Source: Erythrobacteraceae bacterium CCH12-C2 | GTDB lineage: Bacteria; Pseudomonadota; Alphaproteobacteria; Sphingomonadales; Sphingomonadaceae | Reading direction: 5' to 3' | Length of the DNA: 64,000 nucleotides | Assembly (NCBI GenBank): GCA_001556995.1 | Contig: LSKF01000002.1 | Span: 4,845 to 68,844, forward strand | Shown: piece after piece, positions 15,053 through 34,802 of the stretch | Layout: each line of letters opens with the position of its first letter | Numbering within the stretch: position 1 is the stretch's first letter | The notes under the pieces: model-generated | What the model saw: the letters and a program-made list of their open reading frames with translations, nothing else | Database searches by the model: none | What the model was told of the DNA's origin: nothing | Position numbers and translations under genes: made by a program

Positions 15053-15069
15053 CTAATGCAGTGAATTAA
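15053..15069 (+). promoter_or_regulatory. regulon operator site 1
   Basis: CTAATGCAGTGAATTAA; reverse strand TTAAT-TCACTGC-ATTAG. It lies 29 bases upstream of the first MBL-fold hydrolase gene. One of eleven sites with the pattern TTAAT-N7-ATTA(G/C/T). Confidence 0.75.
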
Positions 15070-15098
15070 GTCTAGAGATCTCCCGAGAGGGAAGGCTT

Positions 15099-16169
15099 AT
15101 GATGAAGCGAATCGGCATCGGGTTCCTGGTGATTGTCGCGCTCGTCGCGGCGGCGGCCCTCGTGTTCCAAAAGCGGATTGGTGAGGCCGTCTTTCAGCGC
15201 GCGGCTCAGGCGTTGGCCGGGCGCGATCAGCTGGACAGCCTCGACGATGGCCTTCATGTCGGACTGTGCGGCACGGGTTCGCCCATGCCCAACCCCCAGC
15301 GCGCGGGCCCCTGCAATGTCGTTATCGCGGGCGATCAGGTGTTCGTGGTCGACATGGGCGAGAACGGCAATCGCAACCTCAACATGATGGGCATCAGCGC
15401 CGCCAAGGTGAAGGCGCTGCTGCTCACTCATTTCCATTCGGACCATATCGACGGCATCGGCCCCTTGATGCTGTACCATTGGACCCGCGGCGCGAGCACC
15501 GCGCCGCTGCCGATCTACGGACCGGAAGGGGTTGAACAGGTCGTGGCGGGCTTCAACGCCGCCTATGCGCTCGATCACACCTACCGGATCGCGCATCACG
15601 GCGAGAAGGTCGTGCCACGCAGTGGCGGCGGGGCAGAGGCACGGCCCTTTGCCTTCGCGGGCAAGAGCGCGGTCATCCTGCAAGGCGGAGGCCTTACCGT
15701 GACGGCGTTCACCGTCGATCACGACCCGATCAGGCCCGCAGTCGGCTATCGCTTCGACTACAAGGGGCGCAGCCTTTGCATCAGCGGCGACGCTGCCAAA
15801 TCGGCCAACCTGATCGCCACCTGCAAGGGCGCCGACCTGATAATCCATGATGCTTTGCAGCCGCGCATGGTCAAAGACATTGAGGCGGCCTTTGCGGCGC
15901 AGGGCAATGCCAACACCGCCAAGATCTTCCACGACATCCAGGATTACCACGCCACGCCCGAACAAGCTGCGGAAAGCGCGCGAGACGCGGGCGCGAAGAT
16001 GCTGGTGCTCTCGCACCTCGTGCCGCCGCTGCCATACGCCTATCTCTACCCTGCCTTCCTCGGCGATGCGCCGCAGCGGTTCGATGGTGCAATCGTGGTG
16101 GGGGAGGATGGGATGCTATTCTCGCTCCCACCGCAGAGCGAGGAAATTGAGCGCCGCAAACTCTTGTGA
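15099..16169 (+). CDS. membrane-anchored MBL-fold hydrolase, arylsulfatase/RNase Z-like
   Basis: 356 residues. Start ATG at 15099 after GAGAGGGAAGG; the adjacent ATG at 15102 is equally possible. Residues 3-23 are a hydrophobic signal anchor (IGIGFLVIVALVAAAALVF) without a clear cleavage site. The metallo-beta-lactamase fold shows GLCGTGSPMP (55-64), zinc ligands HFHSDH (111-116), a later ISGDAAKS aspartate and LSHLVPP. This arrangement resembles RNase Z-like hydrolases, which include zinc-dependent alkyl/arylsulfatases such as AtsA of Pseudoalteromonas; a lactonase or phosphodiesterase role cannot be excluded. A paralogue is encoded at 22760-23836. Single-gene unit behind operator 1. Confidence 0.75.
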   Translation: MMKRIGIGFLVIVALVAAAALVFQKRIGEAVFQRAAQALAGRDQLDSLDDGLHVGLCGTGSPMPNPQRAGPCNVVIAGDQVFVVDMGENGNRNLNMMGISAAKVKALLLTHFHSDHIDGIGPLMLYHWTRGASTAPLPIYGPEGVEQVVAGFNAAYALDHTYRIAHHGEKVVPRSGGGAEARPFAFAGKSAVILQGGGLTVTAFTVDHDPIRPAVGYRFDYKGRSLCISGDAAKSANLIATCKGADLIIHDALQPRMVKDIEAAFAAQGNANTAKIFHDIQDYHATPEQAAESARDAGAKMLVLSHLVPPLPYAYLYPAFLGDAPQRFDGAIVVGEDGMLFSLPPQSEEIERRKLL

Positions 16170-16272
16170 GGTGGGCTTACCGCAGCGCCATCATTGGCCG
16201 GGCACGGGAATACCCCGCCTTTCATGACATTGACCGGCTGGTCTGCCGCATCCATTGACACCAGAGACATCA

Positions 16273-16289
16273 AAAATATACTACATTAA
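16273..16289 (+). promoter_or_regulatory. regulon operator site 2 (degenerate half)
   Basis: AAAATATACTACATTAA; reverse strand TTAAT-GTAGTAT-ATTTT. One half-site is intact, the other has two changes. 21 bases upstream of the GTG at 16311. Confidence 0.6.
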
Positions 16290-16310
16290 TTGGGGGCGGG
16301 AGAGCTTGGC

Positions 16311-16700
16311 GTGAAAATCGGTCGATCGGTGCTGCTGGGGCTTGTCACCCTCATTGTGCTCCTCATGGCTGGCAATGCGGCGCTGTGGCTGTTTGTCCCG
16401 GCCCGCGCTGCCGAGGCGTTGAAGATGCCGCTGCTGACTGGCCCGGCGCTGAGCAGCCAGATGGACATCGGCGCGTTCTTTCTTGCCGCTGCCTGCTTCA
16501 TTGGACTTGCGTTAATCACCCGCGAGCGCCCGTGGTTCATCGCTGCCGCCGTGCCGCTGCTGGGCGCGGCCGCTTATCGCACCGCCGCATTCCTGTTCCA
16601 CGGCGCTCCGTTCCTTGCTGACATGGTGACGAACGAGGTGGTGATGGGCGCGATCCTGATCATCGCCAGCCGCGTGCTCGGGCGCGAGAGCAGCGGCTAG
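16311..16700 (+). CDS. small membrane protein, DUF4345-like
   Basis: 129 residues from a GTG at 16311 (GGGAGA eight bases upstream); a TTG at 16290 would overlap the operator. Four predicted membrane helices: LLGLVTLIVLLMAGNAAL, IGAFFLAAACFIGLALI, WFIAAAVPLLGAAAY and VVMGAILIIASRV. The layout resembles DUF4345-type four-helix proteins of unknown function. A similar protein is encoded at 24976-25371; each precedes a hydrolase gene. The sulfatase gene follows after three bases. Confidence 0.6.
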   Translation: MKIGRSVLLGLVTLIVLLMAGNAALWLFVPARAAEALKMPLLTGPALSSQMDIGAFFLAAACFIGLALITRERPWFIAAAVPLLGAAAYRTAAFLFHGAPFLADMVTNEVVMGAILIIASRVLGRESSG

Positions 16701-16703
16701 GCC

Positions 16704-18494
16704 GTGCCGGTGTTCCGCGCCAAGTTGCTGCTGCCGCTCCTCGCCATCGCGGTTCTGGTGGGCGGAGCGGCGCCAAAGGACGCGCCGGACAAGCGCCCGA
16801 ACGTTGTTATTATCCTCGCTGACGATGTCGCGCTGATGGATTTCGGCGCCTATGGCGGCGAGGCCCGCACGCCCAATATCGACGCGCTGGCGGGGCGCGG
16901 GGCGCTGTTCACCCAATACCGCGCTTCGCCGCTGTGTTCGCCCTCGCGCGCGATGCTGCTGACGGGGATCGACGCGCACCTCACCGGGGTCGCCACCATT
17001 CCCGAGGTCCTGCCCAAGGAGCAGAAGGGTAAGCCCGGCTATGGCATGGCGCTGGAGCCTGGGGTGCTGACGCTGGCCGACCGGCTGCGGGCGCAGGGCT
17101 ATCGCACGATCATGTCGGGCAAGTGGCATCTGGGAGAAGCGCCGGGCGAGATGCCGCAGGCCCACGGCTTTGACCGCAGCTTTGCGCTGGCGGCATCGGG
17201 CGCGGACAATTGGGACGACCGCTCCTACATGCCCTATTACAAGGACGCGCCGTGGTTCGAAGACGGGGCCGAGACGAGCCTGCCGGAGGATTTCTATTCC
17301 TCGCGCTTCATCGTCGACACCGCGATCAAATATTTGGCCGAGACCGATCCGGCCAAGCCGTTCTTCGCCTATCTGCCGTTTCAGGCGATCCACATCCCGG
17401 TGCAGGCGCCGCGAGAGTTTATCGATCGCTACAAGGGCCGCTATGATCAAGGCTGGGAGGCCTTGCGCAAGGAACGCCACCAACGGGCGCAGGCACTAGG
17501 CCTGATCCCGCAAGGCGCGCCGCTCGCCGACCTGCCGCCCGATTTTCGCGCCTGGGACAGCCTCTCGGCCGAGGATCGCGCGCTTTATGCCGCGCGGATG
17601 GAGGTGAACGCGGCGATGCTGGAGGCGATGGATTTCCACATCGGGCGGCTGATCGCGCACCTGAAGGCGAAGGGCGAATACGACAACACGATCTTCATCG
17701 TCTCGTCCGACAACGGCCCGGAGCCTTCGCGCGGGGACGACACTGCAACCCTCAGCTTCTATCACTGGCTGACGGGCTACAGCATCGGGGCCGATAACAT
17801 GGGCGGCCCGGGGTCGTGGGGATTCATCGGCCCCGAATGGGCGGCGGCGGCGGCCACGCCGGGCTCGTGGTTCAAGTTCTATGCCACCGAGGGCGGGATC
17901 AGGGTGCCGCTGATCATGGCCGGCCCCGGCATCGCCCCGCAGCAGGTCACCAGCCCGGCGATGGTCACCGATGTTGCCCCGACCGTGCTCGATTGGCTCG
18001 ATGTCGATCCCAAGTCGAGCGCGGGCAAGCCGATGACCGGGCGCAGCCTGCTCCCGGTGCTCGAAGGCACGGCGGCAAGCGCCTATGGCCCCGACGAGGC
18101 CCGCGCGGTCGAGGTTTCAGGCAACTCCGCGCTCTATCTCGGTGATTACAAGATCACCCGCAGCGTGCCCCCGGTCGGCGATGGCCAGTGGCGGCTCTAC
18201 AACCTCGCGCGTGATCCGGGCGAGACCACCGATCTCAGCGCTAGCGAACCTGCGGTCAAGGCACGGCTGCTCGCGGCGTATGACGCCTATGCCGAGCGGG
18301 TCGGCGTGCTGCCGATGCCGGAAGGTTATGATTCCGCAGCGCAAATCGCGCGCAATATCGGCGCGCGACTGCTTAGCAACTATCCGTGGCTTTACGCTGT
18401 GCTGGGCGTTGTGCTTCTGCTGTTCGCTGCGGGAATCTGGCTGGGCCTGCGCGGGATGCTTGCGCTGACGCGCCGCCCGAACAGCGCTCAATAG
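16704..18494 (+). CDS. arylsulfatase (FGly type), secreted or membrane-bound
   Basis: 596 residues from a GTG three bases after the previous stop. A hydrophobic N-terminus (residues 5-22) suggests export. NVVIILADDVALMDFGAYGG gives the metal-binding aspartates (40-41). LCSPSRAMLLTG holds the cysteine to be converted to formylglycine (Cys78, C-x-P-S-R). SGKWHLGE and SSDNGPEPSRG supply further active-site residues. A C-terminal membrane helix (LYAVLGVVLLLFAAGIWLGL) is unusual for sulfatases and suggests anchoring by the tail. It hydrolyses a sulfate ester with Ca2+; the substrate is unknown. The 3' end overlaps the convergent gene by seven bases. Confidence 0.88.
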   Translation: MPVFRAKLLLPLLAIAVLVGGAAPKDAPDKRPNVVIILADDVALMDFGAYGGEARTPNIDALAGRGALFTQYRASPLCSPSRAMLLTGIDAHLTGVATIPEVLPKEQKGKPGYGMALEPGVLTLADRLRAQGYRTIMSGKWHLGEAPGEMPQAHGFDRSFALAASGADNWDDRSYMPYYKDAPWFEDGAETSLPEDFYSSRFIVDTAIKYLAETDPAKPFFAYLPFQAIHIPVQAPREFIDRYKGRYDQGWEALRKERHQRAQALGLIPQGAPLADLPPDFRAWDSLSAEDRALYAARMEVNAAMLEAMDFHIGRLIAHLKAKGEYDNTIFIVSSDNGPEPSRGDDTATLSFYHWLTGYSIGADNMGGPGSWGFIGPEWAAAAATPGSWFKFYATEGGIRVPLIMAGPGIAPQQVTSPAMVTDVAPTVLDWLDVDPKSSAGKPMTGRSLLPVLEGTAASAYGPDEARAVEVSGNSALYLGDYKITRSVPPVGDGQWRLYNLARDPGETTDLSASEPAVKARLLAAYDAYAERVGVLPMPEGYDSAAQIARNIGARLLSNYPWLYAVLGVVLLLFAAGIWLGLRGMLALTRRPNSAQ

Positions 18495-19318
18495 GCGCGG
18501 GTGGCGATCACGCGGGTGCGCTTCAGCCCTGCATCGCGCTCGGCCAGCGCGCGGCGGTAGAACGGGAATTGCTCCATGGCGAAGATGGCGGTGGGGTCAG
18601 GATAGATCATCGCCGCCAGGTCGTCCCACGGCACTTGCCAGTCAGGGCTGCGGGGCTGGACCAGCACGGCGGTGATGGTCCCTGCAAACAGGAACTGCCC
18701 GCCCACAGCATGCACCGCCTTGAAGGCTTGACGGCCATAGCGAAGATAGGCCGCGCGCCCATCCGCCGCGTCACCCTTGGCGATGGCGGGATATTCTAGA
18801 AAGTTCATCATCGCCAAGGACATGTCCTCAGGCAGGGCTTGAGCCTCGGCGATCGCGTCCATGGTTGGAAGTACATCGCGCCGCCCTTCGATGTGATCGA
18901 GCGCGGTCGGTAACGGCGCTGCAGGCCTGCGGGTGAGGCCGAGCAAGTGCCGCAACCGAAGCAGGCCGAGGACCAACAGAGGGACCGGCGTGAGGGCGAT
19001 TTCAGCCACGAAAGCGTCCGACACCCCCGGCTGGGACGTCAGCTCTGCCACATCAACGGTGCTGGTGGGGAGGATCAGGTAATCGGTCCAGTAGGGATCG
19101 CCCTCACCGATTAGCGTGAAGAGGGCCGTGGATGTCCATAGCACATCTCCGGTACTCAGCCGCGCGCCGGGTTGCTCCTGACGCAGCGCGGCAAAGATAG
19201 CGGTGCGGTTCCGATGAATGCGGCGCGATGGCTGGCGCATCCCGATGACTATGGCCAAGGTGAGGGTAAGCGCAATCAACCCGCCGATGACCGCCAAACC
19301 CGCAAGTGCGATGTTCAT
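18488..19318 (-). CDS. membrane-anchored protein with DUF1330-like C-terminal domain
   Basis: 276 residues from the ATG at 19318, which has GAGGGG nine bases upstream; a longer start at 19357 would overlap the sulfatase gene. Residues 2-23 form a membrane anchor. A second hydrophobic helix lies at about 105-120 (ALTPVPLLVLGLLRLRHLLGL). The C-terminal 90 residues (YLRYGRQAFKAVHAVGGQFLFAGTITAVL ... IYPDPTAIFAMEQFPFYRRALAERDAGLKRTRVIAT) look like a DUF1330/dimeric alpha-beta-barrel domain, known for small binding or enzymatic proteins. Thirteen bases after the sulfatase gene, in one operon behind operator 3. Confidence 0.6.
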   Translation of the reverse strand: MNIALAGLAVIGGLIALTLTLAIVIGMRQPSRRIHRNRTAIFAALRQEQPGARLSTGDVLWTSTALFTLIGEGDPYWTDYLILPTSTVDVAELTSQPGVSDAFVAEIALTPVPLLVLGLLRLRHLLGLTRRPAAPLPTALDHIEGRRDVLPTMDAIAEAQALPEDMSLAMMNFLEYPAIAKGDAADGRAAYLRYGRQAFKAVHAVGGQFLFAGTITAVLVQPRSPDWQVPWDDLAAMIYPDPTAIFAMEQFPFYRRALAERDAGLKRTRVIATRAY

Positions 19319-19331
19319 TCTGGCCGACCCC

Positions 19332-21005
19332 TCAATTGGGCCACATGATATATTCATCGCCCTTGGCCACGGCCTGATCGAGGGTCTTGTCGATCGCGAT
19401 CGGGCTGATCAGGCTGTGCGGCCAAAGCGAGGGGACGGCGTTGGCGTGATGCGCGGCGAGTAGGGCCTTCAGTTCCTTGACCTTTTGCGGCTGCTTGGTT
19501 GCCAGATTGGTCTTCTCGGTCGGATCGGCGGCGAGATTGAACAGCCACAGTTTGTTCTGATAGCCATCGACCTGCAGCTTCCAGTCGCCCGCGCGCACCA
19601 CGCGGTAATTGCCCGATTGCCAGAAGATTGCATCATCCTTGCGCTGCAATGGCCCGGTGCCGAAGGCGGGCGGCATGAAGTTGACACCGTCAATCACCCG
19701 GTCCGATGGCAGCGCCACACCGGCGGCTGAGGCGAGACTGGGGAAGAGGTCGATATGCGCCACCGGCGTGTCGACCACCGTTCCCGGGGCGATACGCTGC
19801 GGCCACTTGACGAACATCGGTACGCGGATGCCGCCCTCGAACAGCGTGATCTTCCAGCCCCTGAACGGCGCATTGACCTCGGGGAGGCCGATGTAACCCG
19901 GCGCACCATTGTCGCTGCTCAGCACCACGATAGTGTTGTCGGCCAGACCCTCGGCCTCGAGCTTGTCTATCACGCGCCCGACGCTGCGATCCACCGCGCG
20001 GATCATGGCGGCATAGACCCGCTCGCGATGCGTCGGGAATTCGCCGACCGCGTCGAAATCGGCCTTGGTGGCTTGGAGCGGCGTGTGCGGCGCCCAGTGG
20101 GCGAGGTGGAGGAAGAACGGGCGGTTGCGGTTGGCCTCAATCACGCGCAGCGTTTCGTCAGTCCACCAGTCGGTGAGATAGCCGCCGGGCTTGAACGGCT
20201 CGCCGCCATTGTATGACGCGGCAAAGCTGAAGGCGGCCCACAGGAATTGGTCGATCGGATCGAAATCGATCTTGGCGTTGACGACGTTAGGGTCATCGTC
20301 AGGCAGGTACAGTCCGCTGTGCATCAGCAGGCTTTCATCAAAGCCTTGGGCATTGGGCAGGAACTGCGGGCTGTTGCCCAAGTGCCATTTGCCGATGTGG
20401 ACGGTGTGGTAATCGCGGCTCTTGAGCAGTTCGGCAATCGTGATCTCCGATTGCGGCAGGCCCTTGTTGCGGAACGGCAGGTCATCGTCATTCACCGCAG
20501 CGTTGACCTCAAGCAGAGGCAGGTAGGGTTGCTCGCGGCCTGCGGCGAAGGCGGCGATCACATTGGTCATGCCATCGGGCGTGGGCGTGAATTCAAACCC
20601 GGTGCGGGTGGGATAGCGCCCGGTCATCAGCATCGCGCGGGACGGCGCGCAGGTGCCGGTCCCCGAATAGGCCTGACTAAAGATCGCCCCCTGCGCCGCC
20701 AGCTTGTCGATATTGGGCGTGGGCACGCGGCCCCCGGCAATACCGCCGCCGAAGGTGGTGATGTCGTTGTAACCGAGGTCGTCGAGCAGGATGAAGACGA
20801 TGTTGGGCGGCCGGTCAGTGAGCGGCGCGGCCGCTTGGGCAGGGCCCTGTTCCCACGGCACGGTCTGCGTCGGACCGGCCTCGATCCGGTTCGCCTTCGC
20901 CCGGTTGAGCGCGATCGCCTGAATGATGGCCACGCGGTTGATCCATCCCAGCGCACCGATCAGCAGCACGGCGACAAGCGCGCCGATCCCGATCTTCTTC
21001 AGCAA
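19332..21005 (-). CDS. membrane-anchored arylsulfatase (FGly type)
   Basis: 557 residues from a TTG at 21005 (TTG CTG AAG AAG) with GAGGGGAA six bases upstream. The in-frame ATG at 21074 lies inside operator 3 and is rejected. The choice makes it exactly as long as the paralogue at 28608 and keeps the FGly cysteine at residue 119 in both. N-terminal anchor KKIGIGALVAVLLIGALGWI; metal site NIVFILLDDLGYND; FGly motif TCAPSRAMLMTGRYPTRTG; HIGKWHLG; SSDNGAPG. A sulfatase of the arylsulfatase A type, acting outside the cytoplasmic membrane. Substrate unknown. First gene of a two-gene minus-strand unit. Confidence 0.88.
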   Translation of the reverse strand: MLKKIGIGALVAVLLIGALGWINRVAIIQAIALNRAKANRIEAGPTQTVPWEQGPAQAAAPLTDRPPNIVFILLDDLGYNDITTFGGGIAGGRVPTPNIDKLAAQGAIFSQAYSGTGTCAPSRAMLMTGRYPTRTGFEFTPTPDGMTNVIAAFAAGREQPYLPLLEVNAAVNDDDLPFRNKGLPQSEITIAELLKSRDYHTVHIGKWHLGNSPQFLPNAQGFDESLLMHSGLYLPDDDPNVVNAKIDFDPIDQFLWAAFSFAASYNGGEPFKPGGYLTDWWTDETLRVIEANRNRPFFLHLAHWAPHTPLQATKADFDAVGEFPTHRERVYAAMIRAVDRSVGRVIDKLEAEGLADNTIVVLSSDNGAPGYIGLPEVNAPFRGWKITLFEGGIRVPMFVKWPQRIAPGTVVDTPVAHIDLFPSLASAAGVALPSDRVIDGVNFMPPAFGTGPLQRKDDAIFWQSGNYRVVRAGDWKLQVDGYQNKLWLFNLAADPTEKTNLATKQPQKVKELKALLAAHHANAVPSLWPHSLISPIAIDKTLDQAVAKGDEYIMWPN

Positions 21006-21061
21006 TTCGGTTCCCCTCTTCTGCCGCGTGGTGGTGCTTGCACACCGTTCTTGGACGAGAA

Positions 21062-21078
21062 TTAATGGAAGCAATTAG
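21062..21078 (-). promoter_or_regulatory. regulon operator site 3
   Basis: TTAAT-GGAAGCA-ATTAG (plus strand), 56 bases upstream of the sulfatase TTG at 21005 on the minus strand. Sites 3 and 4 lie between divergent units, one for each. Confidence 0.75.
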
Positions 21079-21136: not shown

Positions 21137-21153
21137 ATAATGCTATACATTAA
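21137..21153 (+). promoter_or_regulatory. regulon operator site 4
   Basis: ATAATGCTATACATTAA; reverse strand TTAAT-GTATAGC-ATTAT. 33 bases upstream of the GTG at 21187. Confidence 0.75.
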
Positions 21154-21186
21154 TGAGGTGCACTGGCAGGCAAGGGAGGCTCAAGC

Positions 21187-22221
21187 GTGGCGATGAATTG
21201 GCTGATCGGGATCGGCATCGTGGCAGTCCTCGCGCTCGTGGGCGTGATGTGGATGACCCGCGACGGTTCGATGGTGGCACCCAAGGGGGCGGGCACGGTT
21301 TCAACCGCTTCGGGCACCTTCGAAGCCTTACCCCTGCCAGACTATGCCGCCGCGGTCCTGCCCGAAGGCTACAAGAGCTACCTCGTCGAGGTCGCGCCGG
21401 GGATCAAAATCCACGTGTTGGAGGCTGGGACGGGCATCCCGGTCTATCTCCAGCATGGCAACCCCACCAATGGCCTCCTTTACCGTAAAGTCTGGCAGGA
21501 ACTGCCGACCGATCAGATGCGGCTGATCCTACCGACCATGGTGGGCCTGGGCTTCTCCTCCAAGATCCCGGCGAGCCAGCACACGCTCGAAAATCATATC
21601 CGTTGGATGAATGCTGCGCTGCGCCAGCTCGATCTGGGAGAGGTGGTTTATGTCGGGCAGGATTGGGGCGGGGCGGTGGGGCTGGGCGCACTGATGCGCT
21701 CGCCCGAACTGCTCAAGGGCATGGTCATTCTCAACACCGGCTGGAGCGCACCCAAGGAGAAGTTCGCGCTCTCCCGCCCGCACGCCATCGCCGCCACGCC
21801 GATCATCGGCGAACTCCTGCTGGAAAACGTCGTCTCGGTGTTCGATCGGATCCATGAGGCGCAGGGTGATCCGGCATCGATCCCACCGGCAGTCGCGGCG
21901 CTTTATGCCCGCCCGGTGCGCGAGAGTGGCAACATCAAGGGTCCGCTGGCATTGATGCGGATGGTGCCGACCGGGCCCCAACACCCGACCTCCAAGCCGA
22001 TGAGCGAAGTCGAGGTCTATGCCAGAACGCTCAATGTACCCACCGAGATCGTGTGGGGAATGCGCGACCCGATCCTCGCGCGCATCTTGCCGAATATGAC
22101 TGCGATGTACCCCCACGCGCGGGTGACCGAGACGCAGGCGGGGCACTTCCTTCAGGAAGAGGTGCCGGCGGAGATCGCCGAGGCGATCAAACGCGTGGTC
22201 GCGGCGGTGGAGGCGAAGTAA
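21187..22221 (+). CDS. membrane-anchored haloalkane-dehalogenase-like hydrolase
   Basis: 344 residues from a GTG (GGGAGG eight bases upstream). Residues 4-22 are a membrane anchor, and about 65 residues precede the hydrolase core, so it is longer than the usual 300-residue dehalogenase. The alpha/beta-hydrolase core has HGNPT (90-94), nucleophile GQDWGG (Asp159), acid WGMRDP (Asp294) and base AGHFLQEE (His320). HGNP plus a Trp after the nucleophile are the halide-binding features of haloalkane dehalogenases; epoxide hydrolases usually have HGFP. Halogen removal is therefore plausible, but other ester or epoxide substrates remain possible. Colinear with its paralogue at 25417. Confidence 0.72.
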   Translation: MAMNWLIGIGIVAVLALVGVMWMTRDGSMVAPKGAGTVSTASGTFEALPLPDYAAAVLPEGYKSYLVEVAPGIKIHVLEAGTGIPVYLQHGNPTNGLLYRKVWQELPTDQMRLILPTMVGLGFSSKIPASQHTLENHIRWMNAALRQLDLGEVVYVGQDWGGAVGLGALMRSPELLKGMVILNTGWSAPKEKFALSRPHAIAATPIIGELLLENVVSVFDRIHEAQGDPASIPPAVAALYARPVRESGNIKGPLALMRMVPTGPQHPTSKPMSEVEVYARTLNVPTEIVWGMRDPILARILPNMTAMYPHARVTETQAGHFLQEEVPAEIAEAIKRVVAAVEAK

Positions 22222-22683: not shown

Positions 22684-22700
22684 TTAATGCATGGTATTAG
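22684..22700 (+). promoter_or_regulatory. regulon operator site 5
   Basis: TTAAT-GCATGGT-ATTAG, 59 bases upstream of the second MBL-fold gene's GTG. Confidence 0.78.
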
Positions 22701-22759
22701 TTTCTCGCGTTATCGGCGGGCCAACTCTTGCGGACTACCTCGATGGAAGGAGCCTTATT

Positions 22760-24771: not shown

Positions 24772-24788
24772 TTAATGCGTTCTATTAC
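24772..24788 (-). promoter_or_regulatory. regulon operator site 6
   Basis: TTAAT-GCGTTCT-ATTAC (plus strand), 63 bases upstream of the minus-strand EF-hand gene. Confidence 0.72.
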
Positions 24789-24912: not shown

Positions 24913-24929
24913 GTAATGTCACATATTAA
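24913..24929 (+). promoter_or_regulatory. regulon operator site 7
   Basis: GTAATGTCACATATTAA; reverse strand TTAAT-ATGTGAC-ATTAC. 46 bases upstream of the ATG at 24976. Confidence 0.72.
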
Positions 24930-24975
24930 TTGTCGGGGCCCCGATCGGGCGCAGGCGCATAGAATTGGAAGTGCG

Positions 24976-26557: not shown

Positions 26558-26574
26558 TTAATGCAATATATTAG
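26558..26574 (+). promoter_or_regulatory. regulon operator site 8
   Basis: TTAAT-GCAATAT-ATTAG, 86 bases upstream of the monooxygenase ATG. Confidence 0.78.
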
Positions 26575-26660: not shown

Positions 26661-28508
26661 ATGACCACCGTGCTGGACAAGGAAGCCATCCGGCAGAAAT
26701 ACGCAGCCGAACGCGCCAAGCGCCTGCGGCCGGAAGGCAACGAACAATACCAGCGCCTCTCGGGCAAGTTCGCCGATTTCGCTGTCGATCCTCACACGCC
26801 CTTCGTGCCCCGCGATCCCGTAACCGATCATGTCTCCTTCGCCTTCATCGGCGCGGGCATGTCCGGACTCGTCACCGCTGCGCGTCTCAAGGAGGCGGGG
26901 ATCGAAAGTGTCCGGCTGATCGACAAGGCCGGCGGGGTCGGCGGCACCTGGTACTGGAACCGCTATCCCGGCGTGCGCTGCGATACGGCGGCGATGATCT
27001 ACCTGCCGTTGCTCGAGGAAACCGGCTACATGCCGAGCCAGAAATACGTGCCCGGTCACGAAATTCTCGGCCATTGCGAGCGGATCGCGAAGCATTACGG
27101 CCTCTATGACAAGGCCCTGTTCCATACCGAAATCGGTTCGGTGGAATGGCAGGAAGATGCACGGGTGTGGCGCATCACCACCAATCGCGGAGACGATTTC
27201 ACCGCCAAATACCTCGGCATGGGAACCGGCCCGCTGCACGTCGCCAAGCTGCCGGGAATCCCCGGTATCGAGACTTTCAAGGGCAAGCAGTTCCACACCA
27301 GCCGGTGGGATTACGACTACACCGGTGGCGATGCGCTCGGCGCACCGATGGACAGGCTTACGGACAAGCGGGTGGCGGTGATCGGCACCGGCGCGACCGG
27401 GGTTCAGTGCATTCCGCAGGTCGCCAAGACTGCCGGCCAGCTGTTCGTTTTCCAACGCACACCATCTTCGGTCGATGTGCGCGGCAATCACCCGATCGAT
27501 CCGCAGTGGTTCGCTCAGATTGCCACACCGGGCTGGCAGAAGCGCTGGATGGACAATTTCGTCGACAATGTCGGGCGCGGTCTGCCGTCCGAAGATCTGA
27601 TCAACGATGGCTGGACCGCGATCTCGCGGCGCATCCGGGAGAAGGTTCTTGATGGTCGGCCGATGTGGTTGGCAAGGCTGGCCACGCGGATAGCGGGCGC
27701 GCTGGGGCGTCCCCCGCGCCAGATGAGCCCGGAGAAGATCCTGGCAGCGATCGAGGATGCCGATATCGAGAAGATGGAGGAAATCCGCGCCCGGGTAGAT
27801 GCGGTCGTCAAGGACCGGGACACCGCCGAGCATCTCAAGGCGTGGTATTCGCAGCTCTGCAAGCGCCCCTGCTTCAGCGACGAATATCTCGATTCTTTCA
27901 ATTCGCCCAACACGACGCTGGTGGACACCGACGGCAAGGGCGTTGAGCGGATCACCGAAACCGGACTGGTGGTGGGCGGCGAGCATTACGAGGTCGATTG
28001 CATCGTCTATGCATCGGGCTTCGAGTTCGGGGCCAACTTCCAGATGAAGACTGGGTTCGATATCAAGGGGCGCGGTGGCCAGCTCTTGTCGGAATATTGG
28101 GCCGAGGGGCTGCGCACTCTGCACGGCCTGCATGTCCCCGGGTTCCCGAATGCGTTCATGGTGCAGATGAACCAGGCCGCCAACATGGTGACCAACATCC
28201 CTCACAACATTGTCGATCACGCGGCAACCGTCGCGCAGGTGATCGCCCATGCCGAGCGCGAAGGTTATGCTGAGGTCGAGCCGACCGAGGAGGCGGTCTC
28301 TCAATGGGTCGAGTTGATCCTGACCGGCCAAGGCTCGCTGATCGCCTCGACAGACTGCACACCCGGCTTCTGGAACAATGAAGGCCAGGGCTGGAGCAAG
28401 GAATTCCGGCAATCGCAGGGCCATCCGGGCGGCGCGGAAGGGTACTTCAATCATATCAACGCGTGGCGCCGATCGGGCACTTACGAAGGGCTGGTCTTCA
28501 AGAAATGA
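26661..28508 (+). CDS. Baeyer-Villiger-type flavin monooxygenase
   Basis: 615 residues. FAD-binding GAGMSG (64-69), [11 protein letters not shown] (94-104), the Baeyer-Villiger fingerprint [12 protein letters not shown] (206-217) and the NADPH site VIGTGATG (241-248) are all present. Such enzymes insert oxygen next to a ketone to give an ester or lactone, using NADPH and O2. The long N-terminus ([18 protein letters not shown]) and overall length recall the roughly 600-residue class that accepts large cyclic ketones or steroids; that sub-class call is from memory. No signal peptide, so it acts in the cytoplasm. Start ATG preceded by GAGAGG. Single-gene unit behind operator 8. Confidence 0.88.
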
Positions 28509-28553: not shown

Positions 28554-28570
28554 TTAATTCATCGCATTAG
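28554..28570 (+). promoter_or_regulatory. regulon operator site 9
   Basis: TTAAT-TCATCGC-ATTAG, 37 bases upstream of the third sulfatase ATG. It differs from the reverse of site 1 at only two spacer positions. Confidence 0.78.
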
Positions 28571-28607
28571 AGCTTGGTGGTGACTGCGACTGCGATTGGG
28601 GAAAGTG

Positions 28608-30281
28608 ATGCTGAGAAAGATCCTGGTTGCAGTTGTCGGGCTGGTCATCCTTGCCGGGGCCATCGGCTGGTTCAACCGCAATGCGATAATGACCGCGCTG
28701 CTGATGCTTCGGATCGAGGCGACCAAGGAACATGTCGATCCCCCTCGAGACATCGTATGGGATCAGGGGCCAGCCACTGTCGACACGACCGTCTCGCAGC
28801 GGCCGCCCAACGTGGTGTTCATCCTGTTCGACGATTTCGGCTACAATGATCTCACCACATTTGGCGGCGGCGTGGCGGGCGGCAGGGTGCCCACCCCGAA
28901 CATCGACAAGTTCGCTGGTCAGGGCGCGATCTTCAATCAGGCCTATTCCGGCACATCGACCTGCGCGCCGTCGCGGGCGATGCTAATGACTGGGCGCTAT
29001 CCGACCCGCACGGGTTTCGAATTCACGCCGATCCCCGATGGCATGGCAAAGGCGCTACCGATCTTCGCGGCAGGAATGGATCGCGGTGAGATGCCGCCGA
29101 CCGTGTTCAATCCCGAGTTCGACGAAGAGAAGATGCCCTTCAAAAATCAGGGGCTCCGCGGCTCGGAAGTCACCATCGCGGAACTGCTCAAGACCAAGGG
29201 CTACCACACTGTCCACATCGGCAAGTGGCACCTTGGCGAGGCGGACGAGTTCAAGGCCAATGCGCAAGGCTTCGACGAGAGCCTGAACATGCACAATGGG
29301 ATGTATCTCCCTGAAGACGATCCCAACGTCGTCAACGCCAAGCTCGATTTCGACCCGATCGACAAGTTCTTCTGGGCCAAGCTGCAATTCGCCGCGACCT
29401 TTAACGGGAGCAAGCCCTTCGAACCGGGCGGCTACATCACCGATTGGTGGACCGACCAGTCACTCAAGGTCATCGAGGCCAACCGCAACCGGCCGTTCTT
29501 TCTCTACATGGCCCATTGGGGCGTGCACACGCCGCTTCAAGCGACACGGGAGGACTTTGAGGCGGTGGGCGACATAAGGCCTCACCGCCTGCGGGTATAT
29601 GCCGCGATGGTGCGCGCGCTGGACCGCAGCGTCGGACGGATCATGGCGAAGCTCGACGAGGAAGGCCTCGCCGATAACACCATCGTCGTGCTCAGCAGCG
29701 ATAATGGCGGGGCGGGCTATGTCGGCTTACCCGACATCAATGCCCCCTATCGCGGCTGGAAGATCACGCTGTTCGAAGGCGGCATTCGCGTGCCGATGTT
29801 CGTGCGCTGGCCGAAAGCCATTACCCCCGGCACGCGGATCGACACCCCAGTTGCGCATATCGATCTCCTGCCGACCCTCGCATCGGCTGCCGGCGTGCCG
29901 CTGCCCAAGGACAGAATCATCGACGGACGCAATATCCTCCCGCTCGCAACCGGGACCGGCGCCTTCTCACGCCCCAATAATGCAATTTTCTGGCAATCGG
30001 GCGCCTATCAGGTGGTGCGGGCGGGCGACTGGAAGCTCCAGATCGATGGCACGCGCAAGAAGACATGGCTGTTCGACCTTGCTGCGGATCCCACTGAGCA
30101 GAACAACCTCGCCGCAAAGCAACCGGGCAAAGTCTCCGAACTCACGCAATTGCTGGCCGACCACCGCAAAGGCGCGGTGAAGCCGCTCTACCCCTTCAAG
30201 CTCGCCAGCCCGGTCTTGATCGACAAGACCGAAGGCCAGAAGGCCGTCCGCGGTGACGAATACGTGATCTGGCCGAACTAG
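28608..30281 (+). CDS. membrane-anchored arylsulfatase (FGly type), paralogue
   Basis: 557 residues from the ATG at 28608 (GGGGAAAG upstream); TTG at 28596 and GTG at 28605 are weaker options. Anchor KILVAVVGLVILAGAIGWF, metal site NVVFILFDDFGYND, FGly motif TCAPSRAMLMTGRYPTRTG (Cys119), HIGKWHLGEAD, SSDNGGAG, and a C-terminal RAGDWKLQIDG segment. Colinear and very similar to the sulfatase at 19332, differing mainly in the loop after the FGly helix, a region often involved in substrate choice. Substrate unknown. Ends with an EYVIWPN tail almost identical to that of the paralogue. Confidence 0.88.
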   Translation: MLRKILVAVVGLVILAGAIGWFNRNAIMTALLMLRIEATKEHVDPPRDIVWDQGPATVDTTVSQRPPNVVFILFDDFGYNDLTTFGGGVAGGRVPTPNIDKFAGQGAIFNQAYSGTSTCAPSRAMLMTGRYPTRTGFEFTPIPDGMAKALPIFAAGMDRGEMPPTVFNPEFDEEKMPFKNQGLRGSEVTIAELLKTKGYHTVHIGKWHLGEADEFKANAQGFDESLNMHNGMYLPEDDPNVVNAKLDFDPIDKFFWAKLQFAATFNGSKPFEPGGYITDWWTDQSLKVIEANRNRPFFLYMAHWGVHTPLQATREDFEAVGDIRPHRLRVYAAMVRALDRSVGRIMAKLDEEGLADNTIVVLSSDNGGAGYVGLPDINAPYRGWKITLFEGGIRVPMFVRWPKAITPGTRIDTPVAHIDLLPTLASAAGVPLPKDRIIDGRNILPLATGTGAFSRPNNAIFWQSGAYQVVRAGDWKLQIDGTRKKTWLFDLAADPTEQNNLAAKQPGKVSELTQLLADHRKGAVKPLYPFKLASPVLIDKTEGQKAVRGDEYVIWPN

Positions 30282-30425: not shown

Positions 30426-30442
30426 ATAATATTTAACATTAA
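30426..30442 (+). promoter_or_regulatory. regulon operator site 10
   Basis: ATAATATTTAACATTAA; reverse strand TTAAT-GTTAAAT-ATTAT. 52 bases upstream of the TonB-dependent receptor. Confidence 0.75.
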
Positions 30443-30494
30443 TGCTTCGCAGTAGAGCGGGCCGGAACCCGACGCTGCCCGATGGAGGGGAAAC

Positions 30495-33146
30495 ATGGTC
30501 AAGGTAACTCGTCAGCGTCTCGCACAGCGGCGCAAGGTGGCGTTGTTCGCGGGTACGGCGCTGCCGGTTCTGTTGCTGGGATTGGCCGCACCCGCATCGG
30601 CGCAGGATCAGGCTGATCCCGATCAGAGCGACCCGGCATCGGCCGCGCCGCGCGTGCCGACCATCGTGGTGACCGCAAACAAGCGCGAGGAGACGCTGCA
30701 GGACACACCGATCGCGGTCTCGGTGGTTCAAGCCGAGGAGATCGAACAGGCTGAGATCCAGGACCTGCTTGACCTCCAGACGCTGGTTCCCTCGCTCGCC
30801 ATCCGGCAGGGCCAGACTTCGGGTAATACCAATTTCTTCATCCGCGGCTTCGGCAACGGCCAGAACGCGATCGGGCTCGAGCCGTCGGTCGGGGTGTTCA
30901 TCGACGGGGTCTATCGCTCGCGCTCGGCTGCTTCGATCTCCGACCTGCCGAACCTTGAGCGGGTCGAGGTCCTGCGCGGCCCCCAATCGACCCTGTTCGG
31001 CAAGAACGCGTCGGTGGGCGTGATTTCGGTGACTACGCGCAAGCCGCAGTTCGAGCTGGGCGGCCATGTCGAAGCCAGCGTTGGCAACTATGGTCTGCAC
31101 CGCTTGGAAGCGTATATTACAGGTCCGATTAACGATACGCTGGCGGTTGCCTTGGGTGGCAATGTCAACCTGCGTGACGGCTATGTCGAGGATCTCGGCA
31201 CCGGAGGCGACTACAACGAACGCGACCGTTCGGGCATCCGCGGCGATATCCTGTGGGAGCCCTCGCTCGATGTCAGCTTCCGCCTGATCGCCGACTATGA
31301 CGAGATCGACGAGAATTGCTGCATCCTTACCAATCTCGTCGAAGGCCCGACCGGCGCCAGCATCCGCGCGCTGGGCGGGCAATTCGTCTCGGAAGACCCG
31401 TTCTCGTACAACGTGTTCTACGATATCGTGCCGAGCAACCGGATCGAGAACTACGGCGTATCCCTTGAGGGCGATTTCGACTTCGACTTCGCGACGTTGA
31501 CCAGCATCACTGCCTATCGCCGCAACGACGTCGAGTCCCAGTTCGATCCCGATGCGACCAGCCTCCGATTGTTTGCAACAAACTCAGGCCAATCGGAAAT
31601 CGAGACCTTCACGCAGGAAGTCCGGTTGCAATCCAACGGCGCGGGCAAGCTGTTGGACTGGATGATCGGGGGCTTCTACTTCGATGAGCGGCTCCAGTCC
31701 GGCAACGACCTCTTCTATGGCGCGGACTACCGGCGCTATCTGGGCGCGCTGCTGGGCAACCCCACGCAGGTTGCCACATTCGAGGCCGCTGCCGGGGTGC
31801 CGGCCGGCACCTTTGCCGCACCCGGACAAGGCATTTCCGAGAGGAGCGAGCAGGACAACACCGCCTGGTCGATCTTCGGCAATGTCGATTTGCATCTGAC
31901 CGACCGTCTGACCGCCACTTTCGGGATCAGCCACACCGAAGATCGCAAGGACGTTTCAGTCACCGCGCTCAGCACCGATGCGCTGGCAGCGGTCAATCTC
32001 GACCAGCTCGGCTACAACACCACGCTCAGGAACCTGCTGGCTGCGCGCGGCGTGAATTTGCAGAATCCGGCGTCGGTGGGGCCGTTCGTCGCAGCCAATC
32101 CGGGCATCTACGCGCAACTCCAGCAGCAGTCCCTGACGACCGCGCTTGGCACCGGCAACCCCTTCAATGCACTTCGTGCGCTGCAGTTCTTCCCACCCTT
32201 CGTCAATCTCCCCAACGCAGTGGAAGACGGACAATCGCGCGACAACAGCACCGACTTCACGATCCGCCTCGCTTATGAGCTGACTGACCAGATCAGCGTC
32301 TATGCGTCCTATGCGACGGGCTTCAAGGCGAGTTCGTGGAACCTGTCGCGGCAGAGCAGGCCGCCGGCCGCGATCCTCGTCCCCGGCAATCCGGTGGTCG
32401 ATCCGGTCACCCGCCAGGTTGTCCGAGCGACGCCTGCCTCGCCTGTCACAAGCGCGGGCCTTTACTCGACAAATCTCCTGCCTGGGACACGCCTTGCCTC
32501 GCCCGAGGACGCCGAGGTCTATGAGTTGGGAATCAAGGGCACATTCGATAATTTCGCCTTCACTCTCACGGTGTTCGATCAGACACTGAAGAACTTCCAG
32601 ACCACTGTCTTCACGCAGAACGGCTTCGTATTTGCCAACGCCGCCGAGCAATCGACATTTGGCGTGGAGGCCGACTTCCGCTGGAGCCCGCTCGACGGGC
32701 TGTTCTTGATCGGGGGCGCTACATTCCTCGACCCAGTCTATGACAGCTTCCCCAATTTCGGGCCGGGCATCGACATCTCCGGGCAACAGCCGCAGGGCGT
32801 TGCCGAGACGCAGTTCACGCTCGGCTCGAACTACAATTTCACCATCGGCAACCTCGACGCTTTCGTTCGGGCGGATTGGCAGTATATCGGCAATTCGCCG
32901 TTCCTCGATGATCCGAACGAGGCGGCCCGGCTGGTGGGCAGCGGCTTTTCGCGCGAGCAGAACCTCGTGAACATGTCGGTCGGGATCAGGACCTCCGGCG
33001 ATTTTGCGATGTCCTTGTGGGCGCGCAACCTGCTCGACGATGAGCATATCGTTTTCGCCACGCCCGCCCTGGCACAGGCCGGCACGATCAACGGCGCGCC
33101 CAATCAGCCGCGCACGTACGGGGTGACGATCCGCAAGTCGTTCTAA
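30495..33146 (+). CDS. TonB-dependent outer-membrane receptor
   Basis: 883 residues. Signal peptide ending at ASA-Q (about residue 36). Plug domain: TIVVTANKREETLQDTPIAVSVV (a TonB-box-like start), IRGFGNG, GVFIDGVYRSRSA and LRGPQSTLFGKNASVGVISVTTRKP. The C-terminal beta barrel ends with YGVTIRKSF and its terminal Phe. It would import the compound handled by the cluster across the outer membrane. Start ATG with GGAGGGGAAAC upstream. Control by operator 10 ties uptake to the enzymes. No SusD-like partner is present, as is normal in sphingomonads. Confidence 0.92.
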   Translation: MVKVTRQRLAQRRKVALFAGTALPVLLLGLAAPASAQDQADPDQSDPASAAPRVPTIVVTANKREETLQDTPIAVSVVQAEEIEQAEIQDLLDLQTLVPSLAIRQGQTSGNTNFFIRGFGNGQNAIGLEPSVGVFIDGVYRSRSAASISDLPNLERVEVLRGPQSTLFGKNASVGVISVTTRKPQFELGGHVEASVGNYGLHRLEAYITGPINDTLAVALGGNVNLRDGYVEDLGTGGDYNERDRSGIRGDILWEPSLDVSFRLIADYDEIDENCCILTNLVEGPTGASIRALGGQFVSEDPFSYNVFYDIVPSNRIENYGVSLEGDFDFDFATLTSITAYRRNDVESQFDPDATSLRLFATNSGQSEIETFTQEVRLQSNGAGKLLDWMIGGFYFDERLQSGNDLFYGADYRRYLGALLGNPTQVATFEAAAGVPAGTFAAPGQGISERSEQDNTAWSIFGNVDLHLTDRLTATFGISHTEDRKDVSVTALSTDALAAVNLDQLGYNTTLRNLLAARGVNLQNPASVGPFVAANPGIYAQLQQQSLTTALGTGNPFNALRALQFFPPFVNLPNAVEDGQSRDNSTDFTIRLAYELTDQISVYASYATGFKASSWNLSRQSRPPAAILVPGNPVVDPVTRQVVRATPASPVTSAGLYSTNLLPGTRLASPEDAEVYELGIKGTFDNFAFTLTVFDQTLKNFQTTVFTQNGFVFANAAEQSTFGVEADFRWSPLDGLFLIGGATFLDPVYDSFPNFGPGIDISGQQPQGVAETQFTLGSNYNFTIGNLDAFVRADWQYIGNSPFLDDPNEAARLVGSGFSREQNLVNMSVGIRTSGDFAMSLWARNLLDDEHIVFATPALAQAGTINGAPNQPRTYGVTIRKSF

Positions 33147-33181
33147 CCGCTACGCCGAAACCAACTCGGCTTCGACCTCGC

Positions 33182-33215
33182 GAAAACCTCAGGAGCCCAG
33201 CTTCCTGAGGTTTTC
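33182..33215. terminator. bidirectional terminator inside the transporter gene end
   Basis: GAAAACCTCAGGA (33182-33194) pairs perfectly over 13 bp with TCCTGAGGTTTTC (33203-33215). The A/T-rich ends let it serve both strands. It spans the stop and last codons of the minus-strand transporter and lies 36 bases after the receptor stop. Confidence 0.75.
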
Positions 33216-34685
33216 CTCGTGGGTGGCCCGATCGATCCGGTAGGTCGAGATGACCCCTATCATCGCGATCCAGAGCGCCAGCACGAGCGGCACGTAATAG
33301 GCCCCCATCCGCCAGACGGCATCGGCACTGACTTCCTCCGGCTTGGCACCTGGCGAGACGCCGGCGAGCGTCAGGATCGTCGTTGCAGCCATCACCCCGA
33401 TGCCGCGCACGGCCTTGTCGATGAAGGTCTCGGCAGCAATGAAGACGCCTTCGGATCGTCGGCCGGTCTGCAGTTCGCTGTCCTCCACCAGATCGGCGAG
33501 CATCGATGCGAACAGGATCTGGAAGCAGATGATCAGCCCGATATCGAGGATGTTGGTGATGGTCACGAACCAGAAGATGAAAGGCGTCCCGTTGGGCGGC
33601 AGCAGGTTGAGCAGCCGCAGAATGATCGGTACGGGCGCGCCGACGAAGGCTGCCAACCCGACAAGGATGGCGCCGCGCTTCTTGCCCAGTTTGCGCGAGA
33701 CGAAAGGTGCCAGAACCAGCCCGATGCCCGCAGCAACAAAGGTACCGATGAAGATCGCGCCTGTCTGGCGCTCGTCGAAGCCCCAGAAATAGGTGAGGAA
33801 ATAGAGCGAAAGACCCGCGGCAAGCCCACCTGCGATGGCCGCCAGCGTCGCCGCGATGAACAGCGAAAGGAAGGAGCGGTTGGAAAGCGTCTCGATCAGC
33901 TCGACGAAGATGAGCCCGATCGTCAGCCTGCGTGGCGGAGGAGCGGACTTCAGGTAGGGAATACGCGAATGGGTGCCGGCCGCGCTAACGATGACTGACA
34001 GCAGGATGGCCACCGCCCCCACCAGGCCGTAGACAGGGTAGGCATCGCGGTTGAACCGCCCGTCGGAAATGGCGGCGGTCACGAACGTCGGGAACAAAAC
34101 CGCGAACATCCAGACCGATATCGCGTTGCCTCCCACCCAGGCGAGAAAATACCTCAGGCTGTAGAGCGCTGTGCGCTCGTGATAGTCCGGCGTGAGTTCG
34201 GGCACGAGTGCACTGGCCGGGGTGCGGTAGAAGGTGATCGCGGTCCGCACGATCACCGCCATCGTCATAAGGTACCAGAACAGCACTGTCTGGCTGGCGT
34301 TTGCGGGCGGGGTCCACAGGAAATAGAAGCTCGCCGCCAGCGGGATAGCCGAGGCATAGAGAAACGGGTGGCGCCTGCCCCAGCGCGAATGCAGATTATC
34401 GGACCAATAGCCGACCACCGGATCGCTGATCGCATCGCAAACCAGCGAGATCAGGATCGCCAATCCGACCAGCCGCGCATCGAGGCCGACAACCTGACTG
34501 TAGAAGATCAGCAGAAAGAAATCGAAAGCCGCCGCGGTTATTCCTGGACCGATCGCACCAATCCCGAATGCGAGCTTGGTGGGCCTCGAAAGCGGCTGCT
34601 GAGCACCATCGCGCTTTGCAGGAAAAGTTGGTTGAGGTAGATGGGATGAGCACCCAGGTGCTGGGGTATCAGATTGATTGGACAC
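33189..34685 (-). CDS. GPH-family (MelB-like) cation symporter
   Basis: 498 residues from a GTG at 34685 with GAGGGGAA seven bases upstream; ATGs at 34709 and 34796 are weaker. Twelve membrane segments can be followed. The MFS/GPH signature LVCDAISDPVVGYWSDNLHSRWGRRHPFLYASAIPL lies after the second helix. GPH proteins import sugars, glycosides or other solutes with Na+ or H+. It probably carries the cluster substrate, or a product made in the periplasm, into the cytoplasm. Divergent from tetR with operator 11 between them. Confidence 0.82.
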   Translation of the reverse strand: MSNQSDTPAPGCSSHLPQPTFPAKRDGAQQPLSRPTKLAFGIGAIGPGITAAAFDFFLLIFYSQVVGLDARLVGLAILISLVCDAISDPVVGYWSDNLHSRWGRRHPFLYASAIPLAASFYFLWTPPANASQTVLFWYLMTMAVIVRTAITFYRTPASALVPELTPDYHERTALYSLRYFLAWVGGNAISVWMFAVLFPTFVTAAISDGRFNRDAYPVYGLVGAVAILLSVIVSAAGTHSRIPYLKSAPPPRRLTIGLIFVELIETLSNRSFLSLFIAATLAAIAGGLAAGLSLYFLTYFWGFDERQTGAIFIGTFVAAGIGLVLAPFVSRKLGKKRGAILVGLAAFVGAPVPIILRLLNLLPPNGTPFIFWFVTITNILDIGLIICFQILFASMLADLVEDSELQTGRRSEGVFIAAETFIDKAVRGIGVMAATTILTLAGVSPGAKPEEVSADAVWRMGAYYVPLVLALWIAMIGVISTYRIDRATHEENLRKLGS

Positions 34686-34785
34686 GCATTCGTTCCCCTC
34701 GCGGGCCATTTTGCGATTGCCAGCCGGACGCGCGATCTTCTTTCCTTGGCACTCAGTCGGAGAGTGTGGTATCCCATGGACTGCA

Positions 34786-34802
34786 TTAATGTGCAATATT
34801 AG
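34786..34802 (+). promoter_or_regulatory. regulon operator site 11, next to the tetR start
   Basis: TTAAT-GTGCAAT-ATTAG ends two bases before the tetR ATG and lies 100 bases upstream of the transporter GTG. This placement fits autorepression plus control of the divergent transporter. No ribosome site precedes the ATG at 34805, so the mRNA may be leaderless. Confidence 0.78.

Follow-up and report, generated by a model that had tools for sequence, protein, structure and literature searches.

A 17-bp palindrome before each inferred transcription unit of a sulfatase, dehalogenase-like hydrolase and monooxygenase cluster points to a conserved TetR regulon

The 64-kb stretch of Erythrobacteraceae bacterium CCH12-C2 DNA considered here (contig LSKF01000002.1; the whole stretch is the window below) carries, between 15.05 and 34.8 kb, a cluster of genes for sulfatases, metallo-beta-lactamase-fold hydrolases (MBL), haloalkane-dehalogenase-like hydrolases (ABH), a Baeyer-Villiger monooxygenase (BVMO) and transporters, closed by a gene for a TetR regulator. 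Copies of one 17-bp palindrome stand in front of all its inferred transcription units. We read this as a conserved TetR regulon, and give a probability of about nine in ten that the cluster's own TetR controls the units through the palindrome. TetR (34805-35437) would bind the palindromes, about TTAATGYANTRCATTAA, at the island promoters, its own included; covering these promoters, it would repress them, and it would release them when an inducer derived from the substrate appears. An earlier sequence-only reading of this DNA had proposed a regulon, and the proposal is supported by the statistics of the sites, by their placement, by their co-occurrence with orthologous TetRs and by their genome-wide concentration in some relatives.

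With at most one mismatch, TTAATN7ATTA gives 24 strand-matches in the window, against a mean of 1.29 (standard deviation 1.32, maximum 6) in 100 dinucleotide shuffles; 23 of them lie within 15053-34802 and the remaining one is at 50258. The exact core, TAAT-N7-ATTA, is found at 10 sites, every one of them between 15.05 and 34.8 kb; the remainder of the window has none. A first-order Markov simulation expects 0.017 such cores per 19.8 kb (maximum 1 in 300 runs), in keeping with the sequence-only estimate of well under one in 20 kb. Chance and AT-rich composition as the origin of the sites are ruled out by the shuffles and the simulation. The spacing is particular too: when TAAT-Nn-ATTA was counted in 15001-34900 for n = 0-15, n = 7 gave 10 sites, n = 11 gave 1 and every other length none, so that no spacer except 7 is enriched. 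The eleventh site, at 16273, is the weak one, with a single core mismatch (AAAATATACTACATTA). All eleven positions given by the earlier reading thus proved correct (ten exact cores, and 16273 with one mismatch), and, read on the better strand, TTAAT opens 11 of 11 sites and ATTA closes 10, as it had said; so was the 17-bp palindrome, the consensus being an odd palindrome about TTAATGYANTRCATTAA. In a symmetrised profile of 42 sites from the window and its relatives, TAAT and ATTA are fixed or nearly so, followed inward by 70% G, 85% C or T, and 54% A; as 41 of the 42 were chosen for an exact core, only the inner and outer positions are informative.

The features of the cluster are listed here in window coordinates, related loci and genomes bearing L and G numbers (L001 is the cluster of Sandarakinorhabdus sp. 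AAP62).

15053..15069, +, operator 1, before MBL1; CTAATGCAGTGAATTAA; its AATTA half recurs before MBL1 in L001, L003 and L004
15099..16169, +, MBL1, hydrolase of the metallo-beta-lactamase fold, N-terminus hydrophobic; by sequence, the nearest protein of solved structure is an arylsulfatase, 8gyg
16273..16289, +, operator 2, before hyp16290-Sulf1; the weakest, one core mismatch
16290..16700, +, hyp16290, small hydrophobic protein, distantly paralogous to hyp24916 (36% over 70 residues); start probably later
16704..18494, +, Sulf1, formylglycine sulfatase, CSPSR
18488..19357, -, hyp18488, uncharacterised protein behind Sulf2; no Pfam match above cut-off
19332..21074, -, Sulf2, formylglycine sulfatase, CAPSR; start uncertain
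21062..21078, -, operator 3, before Sulf2
21137..21153, +, operator 4, before ABH1
21187..22221, +, ABH1, haloalkane-dehalogenase-like hydrolase with HGNP, DWGG, WGMRDP and GHFLQEE; hydrophobic N-terminus
22684..22700, +, operator 5, before MBL2; 17/17 bp the same in G403, flanks 61%
22691..23836, +, MBL2, paralogue of MBL1 (64.5%); open reading frame (ORF) starts within the operator, the real start probably being further in
23922..24194, +, EF1, small EF-hand protein behind MBL2
24292..24708, -, EF2, EF-hand protein
24772..24788, -, operator 6, before EF2
24913..24929, +, operator 7, before hyp24916-ABH2
24916..25371, +, hyp24916, small hydrophobic protein; weak DUF4267 match below cut-off; ORF starts within the operator
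25417..26481, +, ABH2, haloalkane-dehalogenase-like hydrolase, 57.8% identical to ABH1, identical pentad
26558..26574, +, operator 8, before BVMO
26661..28508, +, BVMO, Baeyer-Villiger monooxygenase-like flavoprotein; closest PDB entry 5mq6; closest NCBIfam model PtlE, below its cut-off
28554..28570, +, operator 9, before Sulf3
28596..30281, +, Sulf3, formylglycine sulfatase, CAPSR, 65.5% identical to Sulf2
30426..30442, +, operator 10, before the TonB-dependent receptor (TBDR); a partial site shares a half at 30438, also in G403
30495..33146, +, TBDR
33189..34796, -, MFS_2 (GPH-type) transporter; the MFSD2A/lysophosphatidylcholine symporter is its best match in the PDB, though a weak one at 79 bits; real start probably further in
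34786..34802, no single strand, operator 11, before MFS (-) and TetR (+); 17/17 bp the same in G403
34805..35437, +, TetR regulator; TetR_N, TetR_C_30

Strand and spacing divide these genes into twelve transcription units, whose limits come from gene order: MBL1; hyp16290-Sulf1; Sulf2-hyp18488 (-); ABH1; MBL2-EF1; EF2 (-); hyp24916-ABH2; BVMO; Sulf3; TBDR; MFS (-); and TetR. Every unit has a site at its front, and Sulf1, hyp18488, EF1 and ABH2 each follow another gene of the same strand. Two divergent gene pairs have two sites each (21062/21137 and 24772/24913), and the site at 34786 is common to MFS and TetR. The claim that one site precedes the first start codon of each unit therefore stands in that every inferred unit is fronted by one; it needs amending in that MFS and TetR share theirs and that the listed ORF starts of MBL2, hyp24916, Sulf2 and MFS fall within an operator, which suggests that the true starts of these four probably lie further in.

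TTG is a hallmark of the -35 element of promoters. Of 45 gene-oriented sites, 27 have it at a distance of 5-18 bases upstream, whereas four other upstream stretches gave 11, 5, 10 and 16 of 45 (the 45 rows leave out L006 16220 from the 42 sites and enter four shared sites once per direction). The promoter logo of these rows has no -35 consensus at one fixed distance from the sites, the enrichment of TTG being spread over a range. This is what one would expect if the operator covered the promoter core, and it would accordingly fit repression. Autoregulation through the last site had also been suggested. Operator 11 indeed lies immediately before tetR and is kept at 17/17 bp in G403; from this arrangement TetR is probably autorepressed.

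Partial extra sites with a common half-site occur at 24760 and 30438. At the latter, the TBDR operator overlaps a second, partial palindrome within 30426-30454, one half-site being common to both (TTAATGCTTCGCAGTA). This double arrangement, with its GCAGTAG end, is kept in G403, and so two TetR dimers may bind there.

The cluster TetR matches TetR_N at 36.7 bits (cut-off 24). A protein search gave 166 homologues at E <= 0.001, and among the matches listed most are 207 amino acids long, three residues shorter than the window TetR. At least 80 TetR loci were collected by scanning genome contigs. The six whose TetR is 49-57% identical to the window's (Sandarakinorhabdus AAP62, Sphingomonas, two Erythrobacter, Henriciella and one unassigned alphaproteobacterium) all carry exact sites, 23 together; of the other 74, 5 have any, with 9 sites. 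Related TetRs were also found in G403 (81%), G641, G717, G723 and G938. Counting the window, 11 of 12 related clusters have exact sites near the TetR gene, the other TetRs being 48-81% identical to the window's: 10 in the window, 8 each in G403 and L001, 5 in L003, 4 each in L006 and L108, 3 each in L005 and L107, 2 each in L004 and L103, 1 in L002 and 0 in L113. The twelve are not all independent, since L005 and L107 are closely related to each other. A site lies directly before the TetR gene in eight (window, G403, L004, L005, L006, L103, L107 and L108), and the recognition segment AGA[RK]NxSA[VL]HYHFG is present in all twelve TetRs. It is from this conserved segment, and from the co-occurrence of sites with orthologous TetRs, that we infer binding of TetR to the operator. 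Seven sites were paired between the window and G403: all 17 bp agree in two of them and 13-15 in the other five, with flanks 52-72% identical; core identity is here by construction, the pairs having been picked for exact cores.

How common the motif is elsewhere in the genome was the refuting question raised by the sequence-only reading. As far as relatives can answer it, the regulon reading withstands it, with a divided picture: concentration at the TetR locus in G403, G001, G006 and G003, lack of specificity in G641, G723 and partly G717. In G403, a 3.5-Mb assembly, all eight exact TAATN7ATTA sites are within the cluster (reversed-pattern control, 2), and in G717 three of six are (control 0). 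The stricter TAATGN6ATTA, counted on both strands with controls of 0-2 per genome, has 11/11 of its strand-hits on the TetR contig in G001 (control 0), 8/8 in G006 (control 2) and 8/10 in G003 (control 2), then 4/9 in G005, 3/7 in G004 and 2/4 in G002. In genomes with a clean background, then, the regulon is essentially confined to its locus. The view that the sites are a general feature of the host chromosome is rejected in G403, G001 and G006, and largely in G003.

Several observations weigh against a TetR regulon. In G641 only 2 of 11 exact sites are in the cluster (reversed control 17) and in G723 4 of 16 (control 20), so that the motif alone cannot be told from background in these two genomes; there it does not reject the general-chromosome view, nor does it do so fully in G717, G004, G005 and G002. 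L113, from G938, has TetR and enzymes, yet a single degenerate site with one mismatch, which does lie directly before the TetR gene. L001, L002 and L003 have no site directly before theirs; in L001 and L003 the TetR gene follows ABH1. Finally, L023, with an Achromobacter TetR, has the same recognition segment (AGARNLSAVHYHFG), and the exact operator is absent from its 18-kb locus. As six actinobacterial loci with the segment AGQRNNSAVHYHFG or ANQRNNSAVHYHFG have no exact site either, the recognition segment alone is insufficient to predict the presence of the operator.

Beyond these clusters, L114, L115 and L116 have distant TetRs (38-39%) with the segment AGA[RK]NESALHYHFG and other neighbours, and in each of them one site of similar sequence immediately precedes the TetR gene; it is exact in one locus and has one mismatch in the other two. 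That a similar site is kept beside different neighbours hints that the operator may be older than the pathway. Two exact TAATN7ATTA sites each are also found near distant TetR genes in L042 (an alphaproteobacterial metagenome-assembled genome), L047, L065 and L069 (Kordiimonas), those of L042 and L047 reading TAATGN4TCATTA; this is possibly a related class of operators. These four make up all but one of the five site-bearing loci among the 74 mentioned above.

The cluster has a composite look. Three paralogous pairs are present (MBL1/MBL2, 64.5%; Sulf2/Sulf3, 65.5%; ABH1/ABH2, 57.8%). Where L001, L003 or L004 have counterparts of MBL1, Sulf2 and ABH1, these are 81-88% identical to the window proteins; for Sulf1 the figure is 82% with L001 and 89% with L004, while the proteins from MBL2 to TetR are 75-90% identical to G403. 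Clusters of the L001 type come with a separate TetR (51-53% identity) and likewise with a BVMO (79%). In the window each of these two genes is present once, and the L001 and L006 TetRs as queries found no second TetR in it at E up to 1. Operators of a given gene are similar whichever TetR version is present, the AATTA half before MBL1 being an example, which suggests that one operator serves both repressors, with the window TetR now in control of the two modules. The window island is probably made of two paralogous modules joined under one repressor, a joining that would be possible because related TetRs read the same operator. The AAP62 and G403 clusters resemble it in operators, orthologous TetR and enzymes, but have one MBL and one ABH each, where the window has two of both under one TetR; L001 also has a formylglycine-generating enzyme (FGE) and a glutathione S-transferase. 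These two genes lie at L001:2359-4286, between MBL1 and Sulf1, and this FGE is the sole FGE match in the AAP62 genome.

What might such a pathway do? The sequence-only reading proposed no function; the model given here is an addition to it. The TonB receptor would import an amphipathic, sulfated, halogenated natural compound, from which sulfatases and metallo-hydrolases, periplasmic or membrane-anchored (a location judged by eye from hydrophobic N-termini), would strip sulfate or other ester groups. The dehalogenase-like hydrolases would cleave carbon-halogen bonds, the MFS_2 symporter would carry the product inward, and the Baeyer-Villiger monooxygenase would split a ketone, making the chain or ring degradable. 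A sulfated, halogenated, membrane-active molecule would fit all parts, and we tentatively propose, as a possibility that is far from assured, that the regulon consumes natural halogenated sulfate esters, for example chlorosulfolipids. Chlorosulfolipids were first described from freshwater chrysophytes and have been detected in Eastern Pacific coastal water (PMC13413282), and Sandarakinorhabdus sp. AAP62 is an isolate from a freshwater lake (PMC3587927), a match of habitat that offers circumstantial support.

The sulfatase assignment comes from sequence: all three proteins have the CxPSR motif and match Pfam Sulfatase at 192-197 bits (cut-off 25). All 8 relatives searched have an FGE, which in G001, G005 and G717 is located in the cluster or next to it; tblastn with the L005 FGE did not find one in the 64-kb window. 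For the hydrolases, the pentad of haloalkane dehalogenase subfamily III, typified by DhmeA, provides the reference: Asp nucleophile, Asp acid, His base and an Asn and Trp halide pair (PMC10503415). ABH1 and ABH2 match this pattern through Asn (HGNP), Asp-Trp (DWGG), Asp (WGxxDP, the acid being placed by eye) and His (GHFLQEE), as do all seven aligned proteins of the HGNP type, these two included and the L113 protein left aside; they differ from the subfamily in their hydrophobic N-terminal segment and in falling below the NCBIfam dehalogenase cut-offs. In L006 and L103 the slot next to the BVMO is filled by a non-orthologous protein with HGEP, 24-25% identical to ABH2, which at 394 and 381 bits is above the NCBIfam cut-off of 265 for haloalkane dehalogenases; the L006 protein matches solved dehalogenases at 308-315 bits. 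That one dehalogenase type can stand in for another in this regulon hints, more strongly than anything else, that carbon-halogen hydrolysis may be part of the pathway.

Against the proposed metabolism stand the scores of ABH1 and ABH2, about 119-120 bits where NCBIfam cut-offs are 241-265, which is why we class them as dehalogenase-like and not as family members. Subfamily III also includes dehalogenase-like enzymes with low dehalogenase activity or with other roles, such as the beta-lactone decarboxylase OleB (PMC10503415). The L006 and L103 dehalogenases have no N-terminal hydrophobic segment, so that their compartment may differ, and relatives of ABH2 are common (at least 2206 proteins), so that ABH2 is not specific to the regulon. 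The BVMO was not seen in the stretches of L005 and L107 that were covered, and no alcohol dehydrogenase that would supply its ketone was found among the regulon genes.

A credible competitor, though one short of probable, keeps the same TetR regulon and changes only the substrate, to a sulfated polycyclic compound (steroid, terpenoid or polyketide) without halogen, ABH1 and ABH2 then hydrolysing a BVMO product, either ester or lactone, or else a beta-lactone. The monooxygenase is suggestive here: its closest solved relative is the polycyclic ketone monooxygenase-like 5mq6 (438 bits), followed by phenylacetone and steroid monooxygenases, and its closest NCBIfam model is PtlE, pentalenolactone D synthase, likewise matched over most of its length (663 bits), although it misses the equivalog cut-off of 1100 and sits in a different gene setting. 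The place of OleB among subfamily III dehalogenase-like proteins (PMC10503415) is in line with it too. Two different dehalogenase-type proteins in the same slot, one of them passing the dehalogenase cut-off, and the halide-binding Asn and Trp kept in all seven aligned HGNP-type proteins, argue the other way.

Chloroalkyl-phosphate degrading sphingomonads use phosphoesterases plus dehalogenases. That the target might be a man-made chlorinated organophosphate or sulfate, the 'sulfatases' and MBLs being phosphoesterases and the ABHs dehalogenases, has in its favour that the fold families overlap, with PhnP, RNase Z and cyclic-nucleotide phosphodiesterase models matching the MBLs, all below their cut-offs; it is nevertheless very unlikely, the enzymes being old and having diversified (identities among the relatives in Sandarakinorhabdus, Erythrobacter and Henriciella span roughly 45-90%) and FGE genes being linked in three genomes. 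The least credible alternative, which we give hardly any weight, is that another host regulator reads a palindrome merely located in the cluster: TetR binding is deduced from sequence, some genomes have as many sites elsewhere as their reversed control and L023 shows the segment without the sites, but in several genera the sites go together with orthologous TetRs, eight of twelve clusters have one immediately in front of the TetR gene, and all eight sites of the G403 genome are in the cluster.

A TetR regulon of this layout has familiar counterparts. In regulons of the KstR/KstR2 type one TetR uses one palindrome at its own and many catabolic promoters, and a pathway intermediate relieves repression. 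The proposed one-TetR, one-palindrome arrangement of the window is alike, with other enzymes and with a weak match of its TetR to KstR2 in the PDB (E 8e-5); the likeness meant here is one of layout. The SLF alkyl-sulfate module of Psychrobacter plasmid pP62BP1 (PMC10779009) likewise groups regulated genes compactly about a sulfatase that acts on amphipathic sulfate esters. It differs in having an AraC/XylS regulator, an alkyl sulfatase, alcohol and aldehyde oxidoreductases and an acyl-CoA synthetase, and the part of PMC10779009 consulted names no dehalogenase, BVMO or TonB receptor for it.

Five relatives have a DSBA-fold protein (L001:12626-13279, L005:11909-12556, L006:14088-14738, and matches in L003 and L107), which we take to be possibly a glutathione-dependent isomerase; tblastn found none in the window. 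In G403 a longer protein with a DSBA domain is divergent from Sulf1 across an operator.

Just before the cluster, the gene of a large serine recombinase (12618-14279, +) ends within a tRNA-Leu gene (14226-14312, -), and a tRNA-Arg gene (36085-36161, -) lies beyond it. No attachment-site repeat of at least 12 bases was found between 11.0-15.06 kb and 35.4-37.5 kb, but the cluster may be part of an integrated island. Further upstream are two exonuclease-like proteins (1325-2149 and 3601-4545) and a 937-amino-acid protein (4702-7515) with a sub-threshold MobA/MobL relaxase match, suggesting a mobile element. Plasmid relatives were sought and set aside: TetR as a protein query returned 56 records from a plasmid collection, all below 60% identity, and the DNA search 15, with all matches confined to the monooxygenase gene. 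By protein or profile search the TetR was found in 1/397, 2/24, 2/396, 2/60, 3/105 and 5/385 genomes, in samples that overlap and include the starting genome; three of the five in the 385-genome sample belong to the distant 38-39% group, and the counts may be low because some searches scored only the best 7-8 candidates per genome. Such a scattered distribution of the pathway is what an accessory island would be expected to show.

In the literature searched we found no description of this regulon or pathway, nor, for sulfatase, dehalogenase and BVMO together, any paper with all of the terms sought; bacterial breakdown of chlorosulfolipids is not a topic, by title or opening of the abstract, in the chlorosulfolipid literature searched. 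If the regulon reading is true, a single 17-bp sequence identifies all the transcription units of a pathway for which no description was found, and its members could therefore be searched for by motif and its inducer screened with a simple reporter. Taken together, the claim that two ancestral versions of the pathway were fused into one regulon, as proposed from the operator that their repressors share, and that it consumes halogenated sulfate esters by sulfatases, membrane-anchored dehalogenases and a ketone-cleaving monooxygenase under one TetR, is a doubtful one, put forward as a possibility. Were the substrate a halogenated sulfate, the cluster would offer a testable genetic route for the bacterial removal of algal organohalides, and the common operator suggests how two catabolic modules may merge under one repressor.

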